Below, in pieces: positions 56,432 to 64,000 of a DNA stretch of 64,000 nucleotides. Each line of letters begins with the position of its first letter. Position 1 is the first letter of the stretch. The notes under the pieces were generated by a model, which worked only from the letters and a program-made list of their open reading frames with translations, was not told where the DNA came from and made no database searches. The stretch is from positions 806,001 through 870,000 of the forward strand of contig NC_019745.1 of assembly GCF_000317555.1 (NCBI RefSeq). The letters run 5' to 3'. Source of the stretch: Gloeocapsa sp. PCC 7428 (lineage in GTDB: Bacteria > Cyanobacteriota > Cyanobacteriia > Cyanobacteriales > Chroococcidiopsidaceae). Both the position numbers and the translations under genes were made by a program.

Positions 56432-56463
56432 ATCTTATATTCTCTAGTTAACTAGAGAGTCAA
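56432..56463 (-). promoter_or_regulatory. MerR-type promoter/operator of the DUF305 lipoprotein gene
   Basis: On the minus strand, -35 TTGACT (56463-56458) and -10 TAAGAT (56437-56432) are separated by 20 bases. The spacer and last -35 base contain the perfect palindrome TCTCTAGTTAACTAGAGA (56441-56458). An overlong spacer holding a palindrome is the hallmark of MerR-activated promoters. It matches the promoter at 59760-59791. Confidence 0.75.
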
Positions 56464-56571
56464 GAAATGAGGCGATCGCGCCACACCTTACTTAGTTTGC
56501 TCCACAAAAATGAAATAAAGATGAAATTGCGCTCTTCAAAGCAGCTTTCTCTCTCTTTCTTCTACTCACGA

Positions 56572-58509
56572 CTAACTTACCGGAACTGTAAAATAAAACT
56601 GGCTTCCCTGATTTTTACCTGCGGATTCAGCCCAAATTTGTCCTCCCAAACCTTGAACGATCTGGCGACAAATTGCGAGTCCTAGCCCTGTTCCACTAGA
56701 GATGCGTCGAAGATATTCTTCTTCTTGCGAAAACCGAGTAAATATAACTTCTAACTGGTTTGGTTCAATACCTCTACCCATATCCGCAACGCACACCTCA
56801 ATCATCGAAATGCGTTTAGATGCTAGCTTATTTTTTAGCGTGCGCGCGCTAACTGTCACTTTTCCACCAGGTGCAAACTTTAAAGCATTATCAATCAATT
56901 TAGTAAAAACTTGAACAAGTCCTTCGCCATCTGCTAAAACAAGCGGTAATTTTGGCGGTAGTATTACTTCTATTTGCGCTAACTGTTGTGGCGACCACCA
57001 AGCCTTGAGGCTATTCAGTGCTAAGTTAAGACATTCCTGGAGTGAAATTGGTTCTAATTGCCAGTGAATTTGACCACTTTCTAAGCGCGAGAGTGTAATA
57101 AAGTCTTGAGTGAGTTTCCGCAAACGTTCAGCATCGGTCAAAGCGGTTTGCAGCATGACTTGCTGCATTTCTAACGTCATCTCTGGCTCGGTTGCTAGAG
57201 TTTCCAAACAAATTTGGATTGTCGATAAAGGAGTACGCAATTCATGACCGACGATCGCAATTAAATTACTGCGAGTGCGTTCTAATGCGGCTAATTGATT
57301 ATTGAGTTCTTCAAGGCGAATATACGCTTGTGCTTGAATTAAAGCAACACCGACTTGATTGGCGATCGCTTCAACTAAAGCAATATCATGTTCTTGCCAA
57401 ATATAAGGTTCTGCGCCGGTGTGATGAATTTCTAACATTCCCAACAACGTTTCTTGGTAAATCACAGGAACGAGTAACCAAGAACGAATTCCCGAACGCG
57501 ATAAGAGAGTTGTTAACGCCGGATTTGCTTGTAAACTCGGAAGTTTGGTGACATCTGTAACCGCGATCGCTTTTTCGGTGGCTACCGCCGCTTGAAATAA
57601 AGGATTCTCGACTAAAAGCCAAGTTTCCCCTTGTAATGATGTCATTCCAGGCGCTAGCGCTTCGTACTCAATCGTTACATCTTGATAAATGCGATCGCAG
57701 CGGTAAAGTAAACAGCGACAATGCTCAAAAGTTTGCCCTAACTCTTGTACAGCCGTTGTGAGAATCTCGTGTAAATTCAGCGATCGGCGAATGGCGGCGG
57801 TGATCGAATTTACGAGACGTTCTTGGCGTTCTTGCGTTGCGATCGTACGATAAGCTTTCAACAGACGATACTGACTTGCTTGCAAATGCGTCACCAAGCG
57901 TTCCGTAAATGTGACAGCATCAATGTTTCCCCGCCCCACCGACGCCATCATCGGAATCGCATTTAAACCAAACCTAATTCGCACCTGTTGTATCTTCTGC
58001 GCTAATTCTGGTCGATAGACTAAAATTCTGGCGAGTAAAAGATGCGCAACTTGACAACTAATCTGGCGATCAAATGTCCAAATTCCATCAAACTGTCGCG
58101 CCTGATCGATGACTGGCGGTGTATCAGGTGTAAAATGTTCTTGACAAATTAGGCAAGCTGTGTAATCTTGACCAACAACAACTAAATGCCATTCATTAAC
58201 TAGCTGATCTTGGCGATCAAAAGGAATTGTCTCATAAGGCTCGGCAGCAGCGGCAAAGTTAGATTCTGGGGTTGCCAAAACATAAACTTGATCTGTGCGC
58301 TGCGCAATTTGCTGATAGCGTCTTGTTTCGGCACGATAAAAGCGCTCGCGTTGAAAGTTGGCGATGACTAGCGGTTTATCTTTCCCGTTGAGTACTAAAT
58401 CTTCGATCGCGTGCGATAGCGCCGTCAAGGAAGACTTAAAATATCTTTGGGTGTGTAAATCAGGTCGGGCTTGAAGTAACTCCTGGAGTGGAGAATGCGA
58501 AATTCTCAT
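56572..58509 (-). CDS. DICT-GAF sensor histidine kinase
   Basis: This 645-residue soluble kinase has an N-terminal DICT sensory domain (about 15-180, 'RYFKSSLTALSHAIEDLVLN', 'VIANFQRERFYRAETRRY'), which occurs beside diguanylate cyclases and kinases in cyanobacteria. A GAF domain (about 230-400), HisKA with 'IVGHELRTPLSTIQICLETL' and HATPase with 'LIDNALKFAPGGK', 'DMGRGIEPNQLE' and 'GTGLGLAICRQIVQGLGG' follow. DICT is thought to sense light or redox-linked signals together with GAF domains. The ATG at 58509 or 58515 is the start. It is the last of four same-strand genes (Hli, pentapeptide, DUF1830, kinase). Confidence 0.93.
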   Translation of the reverse strand: MRISHSPLQELLQARPDLHTQRYFKSSLTALSHAIEDLVLNGKDKPLVIANFQRERFYRAETRRYQQIAQRTDQVYVLATPESNFAAAAEPYETIPFDRQDQLVNEWHLVVVGQDYTACLICQEHFTPDTPPVIDQARQFDGIWTFDRQISCQVAHLLLARILVYRPELAQKIQQVRIRFGLNAIPMMASVGRGNIDAVTFTERLVTHLQASQYRLLKAYRTIATQERQERLVNSITAAIRRSLNLHEILTTAVQELGQTFEHCRCLLYRCDRIYQDVTIEYEALAPGMTSLQGETWLLVENPLFQAAVATEKAIAVTDVTKLPSLQANPALTTLLSRSGIRSWLLVPVIYQETLLGMLEIHHTGAEPYIWQEHDIALVEAIANQVGVALIQAQAYIRLEELNNQLAALERTRSNLIAIVGHELRTPLSTIQICLETLATEPEMTLEMQQVMLQTALTDAERLRKLTQDFITLSRLESGQIHWQLEPISLQECLNLALNSLKAWWSPQQLAQIEVILPPKLPLVLADGEGLVQVFTKLIDNALKFAPGGKVTVSARTLKNKLASKRISMIEVCVADMGRGIEPNQLEVIFTRFSQEEEYLRRISSGTGLGLAICRQIVQGLGGQIWAESAGKNQGSQFYFTVPVS

Positions 58510-58569
58510 CACCAATTGTGCGGTAAAACCATTACTTGAATAACCCCAGCGCAGACGGCAAGGGCTAAG

Positions 58570-58839
58570 TTAAATTATCTCTCCAGATCCTTCATGAACC
58601 TGCAAGATTGAACAAAGAATTTTATCGAATAAAGTCGCGTTAACAAGTTGACTTGTGTGGATTTCTAACTCGGCTTCTGGCGGTGCTGTAAATAAAAGCG
58701 TTTGTCCAGGAAAAACCGTTCGTTCAAAGTACCAGTTAGGGATGTTAGAAATACGGGTAATCTGCAACAGGCTAGTACGATTGACGTAGCAACACAAGAT
58801 TTGGCGATCGCATTGAGTCGTTGAGGCAATTTGAGTCAT
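58570..58839 (-). CDS. DUF1830 family protein
   Basis: This 89-residue soluble protein matches the cyanobacterial DUF1830 family: 'ILCCYVNRTSLLQITRISNI', then 'NWYFERTVFPGQTLLFTAPP' and 'ELEIHTSQLVNA'. The family is small, beta-rich and of unknown function, and it tends to occur near DICT-domain and light-stress genes, as here. The two adjacent cysteines are conserved in many members. It lies between the pentapeptide gene and the DICT kinase gene on the same strand. Confidence 0.88.
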   Translation of the reverse strand: MTQIASTTQCDRQILCCYVNRTSLLQITRISNIPNWYFERTVFPGQTLLFTAPPEAELEIHTSQLVNATLFDKILCSILQVHEGSGEII

Positions 58840-58866
58840 AGTATCAATCCTTACTTAGTTGTCCTG

Positions 58867-59346
58867 CTAATTTGCAAGTAAGTCTCCACTTAAGTTTGCC
58901 TCATTTAAAATGGTTTGGCTCAAATCTGCGCCACTAATATCGACTAATCTTATTTCTGCGTATCGCAGATCCGCACCCTTTAACTTTGCTTTGGTTAACT
59001 TTGTACGTACTAATTGTGCTAGCCGCAAATCTGCTTTAACTAGCACTGCTTCGCTCAAATCTACTTCACTGAGGTTTGCTTTAATTAAAATTGACCGACT
59101 CAAGTTTGCTTTGTGTAAAGTTGCTTGAGTTAAATTAGCCCTCCACAAAATTGCACTTGTCAAGTTTGCAGAACTCAGATGCGCTTGTCTTAAGTTTGCA
59201 GCAGTCAGGTTAGTGCGTGCTAAGTCTGCACCCCAAAGAATGGCACCTTGCAGATTAACTTCACTTAAATTAACGCCCCGCAAATTGACAAAACTAAAAT
59301 CTCTCTCACCTGCTGCATACCGCCGATTTAGTTCATCAGCATTCAT
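58867..59346 (-). CDS. Pentapeptide repeat protein
   Basis: This 159-residue protein is built almost entirely of A(D/N)LXX pentapeptides from residue 20 onward ('LRGVNLSEVNLQGAILWGAD' and so on), which fold as a right-handed quadrilateral beta-helix. It has a short N-terminal cap with 'MNADELNRRYAAGERDF', typical of a cyanobacterial subgroup. No signal peptide or enzymatic domain is attached. Functions vary widely; some members mimic DNA or act in photosynthetic membranes. The stress cluster context suggests a protective or scaffold role. Confidence 0.93.
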   Translation of the reverse strand: MNADELNRRYAAGERDFSFVNLRGVNLSEVNLQGAILWGADLARTNLTAANLRQAHLSSANLTSAILWRANLTQATLHKANLSRSILIKANLSEVDLSEAVLVKADLRLAQLVRTKLTKAKLKGADLRYAEIRLVDISGADLSQTILNEANLSGDLLAN

Positions 59347-59414
59347 AGTAATCGTGTTTCACGCCGTTTGATGTCGTGCGCTTGAGTATTTGCTGACAAG
59401 ATTGAGATTTTAAT

Positions 59415-59627
59415 TTAAGACAAATTGGTAAAAAATCCAATTAAACCCTGTCCCGTCACAACTTCTAGCACGAGTAAAGAGACAAAACCAATCATCGCTA
59501 AGCGACCATTCAGCAGTTCAGCGTGAGGTGTGAACCCAGTTTGACTTTCTTGGACGTACATTTTTGGTTCAATGGCAAATGTATTTGCTAAACCCCGCTC
59601 ATCGACTACATATTGGCGTGCGCTCAT
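59415..59627 (-). CDS. High light-inducible protein (Hli/SCP)
   Basis: This 70-residue single-helix protein has the chlorophyll-binding signature 'AELLNGRLAMIGFVSLLVLE' near residues 36-55, with the Glu and Arg ligands (ExxNxR) of the light-harvesting superfamily. A flexible N-terminus precedes it, and a short 'GLIGFFTNLS' tail follows. Such proteins sit in the thylakoid membrane and protect photosystem II assembly intermediates and chlorophyll under high light. It is the first gene of the Hli/pentapeptide/DUF1830/DICT-kinase group, and the upstream AT-rich region (59630-59750) must hold its promoter. Confidence 0.95.
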   Translation of the reverse strand: MSARQYVVDERGLANTFAIEPKMYVQESQTGFTPHAELLNGRLAMIGFVSLLVLEVVTGQGLIGFFTNLS

Positions 59628-59759
59628 AGGATTTTCCTCATGTTTGTTTAACTATGTAAATAAATGTAACAGATAATCTTAAATTTTGTAAAGATTTTTA
59701 TAAAAATTGTTACATAAAGTAGTTTTACAACTTTGGAAAAGGAATTTTTGATATTTCGC

Positions 59760-59791
59760 TTGATTCTCTAGTCAAGTAGAGAGTTTACAAT
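59760..59791 (+). promoter_or_regulatory. MerR-type promoter/operator of the copper cluster
   Basis: -35 TTGATT (59760-59765) and -10 TACAAT (59786-59791) are separated by exactly 20 bases. The spacer holds CTCTAGTCAAGTAGAGAG (59766-59783), with CTCTA and TAGAG half-sites at the same spacing as at 56441-56458. The predicted start of transcription is near 59798, about 90 bases before the DUF305 ATG. Confidence 0.8.
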
Positions 59792-59887: not shown

Positions 59888-60505
59888 ATGCTCAAAAAAT
59901 CAGTAATTTATGGGCTTGTGGGCGTACTTGCGGGTAGTGCAATTCCAGCTTTCATCATTAGTGGTAGAGCAAATAGCCAAGCAGTGCGATCTTCTCCTTG
60001 CCATATGACCATGCATAGCGCCATGGCTGGGAGACAACAACAGCACTTCATCGAAATGATGATTCCGCATCATCAAGAAGCAGTCGATATGGCAGAGTTA
60101 GCCTTGGCAAAAGCTCAACGTCCTGAAATTAGAAATTTGGCTGAAACGATTAAAACCGAGCAAACACGGGAAATTGAGCAAATGCGATCGTGGTACAAAC
60201 AGTGGTATGGCACTGAGGTACCTGCAAACTCGATGAGTGATATGGGAATGCATCGCAGTCGAGGACAAGGAATGCAGGGAATGATGATGCGAACGGATAT
60301 GGAATCTTTGAGAACCGCATCTGACTTCGATCGAGAATTCATTCGTCAGATGATTCCACATCATCGCTCAGGAGTCATGATGGCACGAATGGTTGCTAAC
60401 CGAGCAGAACGTCCAGAAATTCGTAACTTGGCACAATCAATTATTCAGTCGCAATCGACCGAAATTGCTCAAATGCAGCAATGGTATCAAGCCTGGTATC
60501 AGTAG
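59888..60505 (+). CDS. Double-DUF305 exported protein
   Basis: This 205-residue protein has a hydrophobic N-terminus (residues 5-28, 'SVIYGLVGVLAGSAIPAFII') serving as signal or anchor, and two DUF305 domains: 'FIEMMIPHHQEAVDMAELAL' with 'EIEQMRSWYKQWYG', and 'FIRQMIPHHRSGVMMARMVA' with 'EIAQMQQWYQAWYQ'. His-His pairs and Met clusters ('MGMHRSRGQGMQGMMMR') suit copper binding. ATG 59888 is preferred; TTG at 59867 adds seven residues. It is the first gene of an operon with the HMA chaperone (22 bases after), the P-type ATPase and the cupredoxin, driven by the MerR-type promoter. Confidence 0.9.
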   Translation: MLKKSVIYGLVGVLAGSAIPAFIISGRANSQAVRSSPCHMTMHSAMAGRQQQHFIEMMIPHHQEAVDMAELALAKAQRPEIRNLAETIKTEQTREIEQMRSWYKQWYGTEVPANSMSDMGMHRSRGQGMQGMMMRTDMESLRTASDFDREFIRQMIPHHRSGVMMARMVANRAERPEIRNLAQSIIQSQSTEIAQMQQWYQAWYQ

Positions 60506-63584: not shown

Positions 63585-63639
63585 AATGGGTAATTGTTGA
63601 TGAAGCTTTCCTATTACCAATGACCAGTGACCAATTACC
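63585..63639. repeat. Spacer repeat of the ATTACCAATGACC type
   Basis: 'aatgggtaattg' pairs with 'caattaccaatg', enclosing 'attaccaatgaccagtgacc'. The same sequence occurs at 19490-19520 and, in part, at 23911-23938. It separates the convergent cupredoxin and MerR genes and supplies the stop codon of the MerR gene. Confidence 0.75.
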
Positions 63640-64000
63640 AATGTTTCTCTTTTTGAATATTAGGACAAATTGTGTCTTCGTGTTGTGCCGGAAAATCTTC
63701 CCAACCTGAAAGCAAGCCATTTAGCTCAGCGCGTAAAGTTAATAATTGCTTGACTTGGTGGTCTATTTGTGCTAGTTTTTCCTCTAATTTTTCCTTCACT
63801 TCACCACAGGGGAGTTCACCGCGATCGTGAACGTTGAGAATCTCGCCAATCTCTTCGAGGCTAAGACCAAGACTTTGGGCGCGTTTAATAAAAGACAGGC
63901 GCGTTAGTACGTCATGCGAAAATTGCCGAAAACCGCCTTCGGTTCGCCCTGCTGATTGCAGTAAACCTAAGCTTTCGTAGTAGCGTATTGTTCTAATCGG
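63635..64000 (-). CDS. MerR-family heavy-metal-responsive regulator (5' end outside window)
   Basis: The visible 121 residues start inside the winged-helix domain at 'PIRTIRYYESLGLLQSAGRT' and continue with 'GFRQFSHDVLTRLSFIKRAQ', a long dimerisation helix ('EKLAQIDHQVKQLLTLRAEL') and a C-terminus with Cys in 'ELPCGEVKEK' and 'DTICPNIQKEKHW'. Two cysteines so placed are typical metal ligands in this family. About 15 N-terminal residues are missing because the gene passes the window edge. It lies beside the copper operon and is the natural activator for the two 20-bp-spacer promoters at 56432 and 59760. The bound metal could be Cu(I), but Zn or Co regulators are similar. Confidence 0.92.
   Translation of the reverse strand, partial: PIRTIRYYESLGLLQSAGRTEGGFRQFSHDVLTRLSFIKRAQSLGLSLEEIGEILNVHDRGELPCGEVKEKLEEKLAQIDHQVKQLLTLRAELNGLLSGWEDFPAQHEDTICPNIQKEKHW

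Follow-up and report, generated by a model that had tools for sequence, protein, structure and literature searches.

Which regulator, and which metal, do the two copies of the palindrome CTCTANNNNNNTAGAG serve that lie in a 64,000-nucleotide window of the Gloeocapsa sp. PCC 7428 genome (contig NC_019745.1, positions 806,001 to 870,000), one ahead of each of two genes for DUF305 proteins? These genes are called copM1 and copM2 here; the second opens an operon that also encodes an HMA-domain metallochaperone, the ATPase CopA and a cupredoxin-like protein, and that is met at the end of the window by a convergent merR gene. The palindromes are very probably the operators of a MerR-controlled, copper-responsive regulon, the metal being most likely copper to judge from the CPC-type CopA, CopM, cupredoxin, multicopper oxidase and HMA proteins among the putative targets. 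An earlier note, made from the window's letters, had claimed that CTCTA-N6-TAGAG occurs only twice in the window, once before each DUF305 gene, that a MerR gene stands at the window end near the second locus, and that the two promoters define a shared metal regulon. All of this stands, and the regulon proves larger than two promoters. The sites, their geometry and conservation, their co-occurrence with MerR, the target genes and the conserved cysteines were computed here, and papers are cited by PMC identifier, each for the passages of it that were covered.

The two exact matches compare with an expectation of 0.02 for the window, and a pair was reproduced in none of 100 shuffles of it. When two mismatches were tolerated the count of palindromes in the window was at chance (16 found, 18.8 expected). 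Read in the promoter direction, site 1 is TTGACT-CTCTAGTTAACTAGAGAATA-TAAGAT on the minus strand, with a -35 box agreeing with the consensus at 5/6 positions and a -10 box at 4/6, and site 2 is TTGATT-CTCTAGTCAAGTAGAGAGTT-TACAAT on the plus strand (4/6 and 5/6), the spacer measuring 20 bp at both. A palindrome inside an overlong spacer of 19-20 bp is the described geometry of MerR activators (PMC5045206, PMC1526738), and in the 22-bp MerR/HMRTR sites its centre lies a fixed 8 bp from the -35 box (PMC5045206). The spacer of 20 bp and the centre at 8 bp found here agree with the activation geometry that had been proposed for the window.

Across the 5.88 Mb of the own genome (G000 in coordinates, C1 being the window's contig, C5 another contig, and L numbers denoting loci) there are six exact sites against three for the reversed-pattern control, two of the six falling inside open reading frames (ORFs). 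The third exact site is flanked by merR and a methyltransferase gene, which diverge from it, and the fourth stands ahead of another merR (a paralogue, 61% identical) on C5, adjoining a second copA/cupredoxin locus. The wider pattern CTCYA-N6-TRGAG has 14 sites against nine for the control, and seven of them precede copper or merR genes, namely copM1, the copM2-copA operon, merR, the C5 merR, the C5 copA operon (whose first gene, weakly YtkA-like, stands immediately before HMA and copA), a multicopper oxidase gene and a third copM. Boxes at exactly 20 bp accompany six of these seven in one orientation, with at least 4/6 for the -35 and 3-5/6 for the -10. The remaining seven sites look like chance matches: six are inside ORFs of 97 to 530 amino acids, the other (C1:5415569) is outside the listed ORFs and without boxes, and the best box pairs among them score 3/6 with 3/6 and 2/6 with 4/6. 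A genome scan allowing one mismatch was uninformative (100 matches, 127 for the control). At L129 two operators, at G000:C5:45092 and 45350, are found 258 bp apart and facing in opposite directions between the multicopper oxidase and third copM genes.

Loci in genome contigs were chosen by MerR protein similarity alone, the best 80 of 103 candidates being taken (930 kb in total); the closest named match among them, at 94% identity, comes from Gloeocapsopsis crepidinum LEGE 06123. The CTCYA-N6-TRGAG core occurs 51 times in 46 of the 80 loci, the reversed core once. Most commonly the -35 box abuts the core and the -10 box lies four bases past it, which yields the 20-bp spacer and, since the core directly follows the -35, a palindrome centre 8 bp from that box. 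Both boxes reach at least 4/6 at 20 bp in 40 site-orientations among the 51 core matches, the next commonest arrangement being a 23-bp spacer (18 site-orientations). Three truncated loci left out, 40 copA operons have at least 350 bp of upstream DNA, and the exact core is present within 450 bp of 35 of them. A core or matrix match precedes 39 of the 40, four by the matrix only; this position-weight matrix was trained iteratively on the very loci that it scored, and the fixed-pattern counts carry the weight. The sole miss, L044, has about 367 bp of upstream DNA. In the rest of the 80 loci the locus DNA shows no copA homologue that reaches 60% identity. Operator 1 has its counterpart ahead of the copM1 homologue of a related genome (G005, locus L012). 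In many Nostoc-type copA loci (L021-L073) the boxes read TAGACT and TAGGAT, so that the palindrome reaches outwards over the -35 and -10 (CTAGACTCTC...GAGAGTCTAG).

In a sample of 386 cyanobacterial genomes the strict site TTGACTCTCYA-N6-TRGAG gave 74 matches in 48 genomes and 36 genera, and its reversed control none; one palindrome (in G296) is listed in both directions, so the matches mark 73 places. At 20 bp the -10 box scores at least 4/6 in 51 of the 74, 3/6 in 22 and 1/6 in one, which is the reverse reading of the G296 palindrome. Conservation of the palindrome upstream of orthologous genes, on which the earlier note had let its case depend, is thus found both at the copA operons and in these strict sites. 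A homologue of the window's MerR (E at most 1e-31) is encoded in 85 of the 386 genomes, in all 48 with a strict site and in 37 of the 338 others (Fisher p 3e-38, uncorrected for kinship). Among 126 larger genomes, of about 3.4 Mb or more and chosen by eye, the relaxed site ACTCTCYA-N6-TRGAG is present in 59 of 75 with MerR and in 10 of 51 without.

Targets were assigned to the 74 strict sites, read in the promoter direction, as the first homologue of a window or C5 copper-locus protein starting within 450 bp. Sixty sites precede such a homologue (copA 16, copM 16, HMA 15, merR 10, and cupredoxin, YtkA-like and thioredoxin-like proteins one each) and 14 precede none. Eight ORFs behind unclassified sites (L129, L159, L182, two of L224, L152, L134 and L214) were searched against Pfam, which returned a multicopper oxidase, DUF326, a thioredoxin-like protein, TPR, two DUF411 and two without family; DUF326 and DUF411 we take to be copper-linked. 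DUF411 genes lie right behind strict operators in L224 and L152, and look-alikes by their N-termini in L225 and L227; all four loci thus offer candidate regulon members. As to the nature of the targets, both window CopM proteins pass the cut-off of 90 bits of NF049983 (CopM1 132.1, CopM2 122.7), the DUF305 proteins of this type being named CopM, copper metallochaperone, by NCBIfam. The window CopA scores 661.9 bits with TIGR01511 (cut-off 397) and displays both transmembrane motifs, CPC and MxxSS, of the P1B-1 copper ATPases. Among 42 full-length CopA homologues CPC is found in 42, GMSC..C in 41, M-x-[FML]-S-S in 40 and a loose N...P pattern of the seventh helix in 36.

Control of these genes may be pictured as follows. 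A dimer of the window-end MerR, or of its C5 paralogue, would bind ACTCTCYA-N6-TRGAGAGT in the 20-bp spacer with its centre 8 bp downstream of the -35 box, and in the absence of metal would keep the promoter off. Cytoplasmic copper, once bound to the dimer, would cause the overlong spacer to be twisted and the promoter to become usable by RNA polymerase. In the PbrR promoter a spacer cut by one base gave higher uninduced activity (PMC3431237); judged by this result and the MerR geometry, the promoter would be repressed as long as metal is absent and, once metal is bound, activated through distortion of the DNA. The output would be copper export and binding by three CopM proteins, the products of two copA operons (which include HMA and cupredoxin genes) and a multicopper oxidase. 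The merR gene would itself belong to the regulon, its operator serving autorepression.

Several observations weigh against this reading. The earlier note had placed both palindromes in 20-bp spacers between good boxes; the length holds at both, but site 1 has a better -10, TATAAG (5/6), at 18 bp, and 20 bp is not its sole reading. At the operator of the window merR no good boxes stand 20 bp apart, whichever strand is read, and autorepression is probably the better reading of this site. The 32-base pattern of CTCTA halves with both boxes matches only eight sites in five of the 386 genomes, its reversed control matching twice (two genomes of one genus), so that CTCTA alone is a minority form. 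The strict site is absent from 37 of the 85 genomes with a MerR homologue, the relaxed site from 20 of the 85 and from two (G211, G305) of the 40 with a strong MerR match. The reversed control of the relaxed pattern is itself mildly enriched in MerR genomes (31/85 versus 51/301, p 2.5e-4) and still is among the larger ones (31/75 versus 11/51, p 0.02); genome size accounts at most for part of this excess, and the genome counts are uncorrected for relatedness. In Synechocystis, moreover, copM is under the CopRS two-component system (PMC4284471). Finally, the sensor has a cysteine where copper sensors of the MerR family have Ser77.

This last point concerns the choice of metal and requires a closer look at the protein. 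The part of the MerR product encoded in the window (121 of 140 amino acids) matches PF09278 (2.8e-21) and PF13411 (3.6e-11), that is, it has the MerR helix-turn-helix and MerR-DNA-bind domains. This partial protein scores below the cut-offs of the equivalog models for CueR (TIGR02044, 75 bits against 147.4), ZntR (74.3 against 167.95; NF007069, 80.1 against 143), CadR-PbrR (65.5 against 151.45) and the mercury sensor MerR (88.9 against 150.85). The nearest solved relative by sequence is PDB 5gpe, labelled MerR-family (73.7 bits; CueR, 62.2 bits), which we take to be a PbrR relative. In the alignment of PDB sequences Cys84 falls on CueR Ser77 and on a cysteine of 5gpe and of 4ua1; ZntR, too, presumably has a cysteine at the CueR-77 position.

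Conservation was followed in a close set of 82 rows (the own two MerR proteins and the 80 loci) and in a wider set of 31 rows (the own protein, 28 matches of 45-64% identity from 26 strict-site genomes, and the remoter L015 and L167). Cys84 and Cys131, the latter at the position of CueR C120, are present in every row of both sets, and Cys131-Pro132 is invariant in the 82 close rows. By ungapped continuation of the alignment Trp119 would in our reading stand at CueR C112, the loop to the last cysteine then being longer; this tryptophan is found in 81/82 close and 25/31 wider rows. Between residues 105 and 130, the stretch that holds CueR C112, no close row has a cysteine, and among the wider rows it is present in two (L252, L257) and missing from 29. 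Exactly two cysteines up to residue 135 occur in 73 of the close rows, and 11 of the wider ones have three or four in total. The CueR signature, Ser77 with the C112/C120 pair, is therefore lacking from these proteins, which have cysteine at 77 and keep the C120 equivalent, while CopR, a CueR, requires C112 and C120 with Ser77 (PMC11591864).

Accordingly, one of the divalent metals Zn, Cd, Pb, Hg and Co, or a mix of metals, could be the inducer of the same MerR regulon, the copper genes being cross-induced. Serine at CueR 77 is said to mark sensors of monovalent and cysteine those of divalent metals, with S77C CueR answering both (PMC11591864), and the closer match to 5gpe than to CueR points the same way as the invariant Cys84. 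The targets are nevertheless copper proteins, CPC ATPases, CopM, cupredoxin and multicopper oxidase. That outcome is in part built into the method: the classification sought homologues of the window's copper locus and was not blind to the metal; 14 of the 74 fell outside it. On balance a purely divalent or mixed inducer appears unlikely, although the behaviour reported for S77C CueR makes a mixed copper and divalent response a live rival. With Cys84 in place and C112 missing from nearly all rows, the sensor in charge of these copper genes bears the divalent mark. If copper is the inducer, the simplest proposal would be a two-coordinate Cu(I) site formed by Cys84 and Cys131 of opposite subunits. 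It is conceivable, and we advance it tentatively, that a widespread cyanobacterial MerR clade senses copper by such an inter-subunit bis-thiolate, without C112 and with a conserved Trp119. Were this true, the MerR family would have two ways of sensing copper, and nature would offer, in the bis-thiolate sensor, an exception to the rule that Ser77 goes with monovalent metals. A cysteine where the family rules expect serine makes that rule of metal selectivity testable on a small protein.

It is very improbable that the palindrome belongs to another kind of regulator, be it the CopR of CopRS, a CopY/BlaI-type repressor or an ArsR/SmtB protein, and that its linkage to MerR is incidental. Besides the control of Synechocystis copM by CopRS, two further regulators have been reported in cyanobacteria, PetR, a repressor of the CopY family with a link to copper, and BxmR, which is of the ArsR type (PMC10141476); the spacer and the position of the centre are however those of MerR sites, a MerR homologue accompanies the strict site in 48/48 genomes, and merR itself is the gene behind 10 of the 74. 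Functionless palindromes, arisen by chance or inherited by two duplicated promoters, are rejected on the strict-site count (74 in 36 genera, 0 for the reversed control in 386 genomes); both window sites do precede paralogous copM genes, but own-genome sites also stand ahead of the unrelated multicopper oxidase and merR genes.

The operator had been thought possibly undescribed, which is not supported in that form. Its half-site is ACTCTCYA, and the outer ACTCT is the same as in the ZntR consensus ACTCTGGAGTCGACTCCAGAGT (PMC1526738). Korostelev et al. 2016 took in 22 cyanobacterial MerR-family factors, and Table 2 of that paper, for the cyanobacterial HMRTR group, pairs a C in position 5 of the site with K as residue 14 and also gives an A in position 13 (PMC5045206). 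These site and residue pairs fit the operator, which probably belongs to the class predicted there; placement in the HMRTR group is suggested by motif length and the same table. Our alignment equates residue 14 of that numbering with residue 22 here, where the 82 close rows have R 69 times and K 10 times, the 31 wider rows K 26 times and R once, and the operator class is very likely the same. The target genes, the metal and the sensor cysteines of the cyanobacterial factors are not among the contents of the paper that were covered.

Comparison with known systems delimits what is particular here. CueR of Escherichia coli, with CopA and CueO, likewise combines a MerR-family factor, an overlong spacer, and copper ATPase and multicopper oxidase targets (PMC10141476), but differs in its operator, in having Ser77 and C112 where the cyanobacterial proteins have cysteine and, by the continued alignment, Trp119, in its targets, which here include CopM and cupredoxin, and in its recognition helix (A-K-M, as against I-R/K-T here; PMC5045206 Table 2 and own alignment). 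The gammaproteobacterial HMRTR system ZntR/zntA shares the 22-bp palindrome in a 20-bp spacer (PMC1526738), whereas the inner bases are GG there and CY here, and its targets concern zinc instead of copper. PbrR/CadR, which answer to lead and cadmium, have the TTGACT -35 box (PMC3431237) and a cysteine at the CueR-77 position, and provide the best sequence match in 5gpe, but their spacer is 19 bp (PMC3431237) and the centre of their site 7 bp from the -35 (PMC5045206). Synechocystis CopMRS-CopBAC has CopM as a copper-resistance protein, but under two-component control (PMC4284471). A literal search of papers for the operator words returned only unrelated titles, and sites given as logos or in supplements would escape it. 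Among the listed open-licence literature matches no study of this MerR in cyanobacteria was found, nor any account of the two-cysteine sensor or of the complete cyanobacterial copper regulon and its targets. For cyanobacteria, the literature covered treats copper control chiefly in Synechocystis, with CopRS and PetR as regulators. Here a one-component regulator, together with its defined operator, allows copper targets to be predicted in 48 of the 386 genomes, so that regulons become readable from sequence.

Table 1. Features of the copper locus and its predicted control sites (window positions unless a contig is given)
Feature	Position	Strand	Basis or remark
copM1, DUF305, CopM family metallochaperone, two CopM stretches, 220 aa	55737..56399	-	DUF305 E 5.7e-43
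copM1 promoter, predicted, TTGACT-20-TAAGAT	56432..56463	-	alternative TATAAG at 18 bp
Operator 1, predicted, CTCTAGTTAACTAGAG, perfect palindrome	56442..56457	none	pattern match
Promoter of copM2-HMA-copA-cupredoxin operon, predicted, TTGATT-20-TACAAT	59760..59791	+	box match
Operator 2, predicted, CTCTAGTCAAGTAGAG	59766..59781	none	pattern match
copM2, DUF305, CopM family, two CopM stretches, 205 aa from ATG	59888..60505	+	Pfam, NCBIfam
HMA-domain metallochaperone (CopZ-like), 64 aa	60528..60722	+	PF00403 1.3e-10
copA, CPC-type P1B ATPase, N-terminal GMSCASC HMA domain, 757 aa	60739..63012	+	TIGR01511
Cupredoxin-like protein, 168 aa	63049..63555	+	PF13473 2.3e-22
merR, 3' part	63635..64000	-	PF09278, PF13411; full ORF 140 aa, extends 57 bp past window
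Operator 3, predicted, third exact site	G000:C1:870118-870133		118 bp past window; about 60 bp before merR ATG

Some neighbouring genes deserve mention. The methyltransferase-like (SAM-dependent) gene divergent from merR (L003 1549-2184, on G000:C1 just past the window), a possible member of the regulon, starts 33 bp from operator 3, and an 89% identical homologue is located about 1 kb from the operator in L019. Two remoter MerR homologues (38% and 36%) are encoded at G000:C5:103197-104803, on the contig that also carries the second copper locus. Just upstream of copM1 and on the same strand (56572-58515, minus) lies a histidine kinase gene with DICT, CHASE6_C, GAF, HisKA and HATPase domains, for which the domain search showed no copper link. 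A small protein with a ELLNGRLAMIGF stretch is encoded at 59415-59627 on the minus strand, divergent from the copper operon, with its start 139 bp left of operator 2; by this stretch it presumably resembles the high-light-inducible (chlorophyll-binding) proteins.

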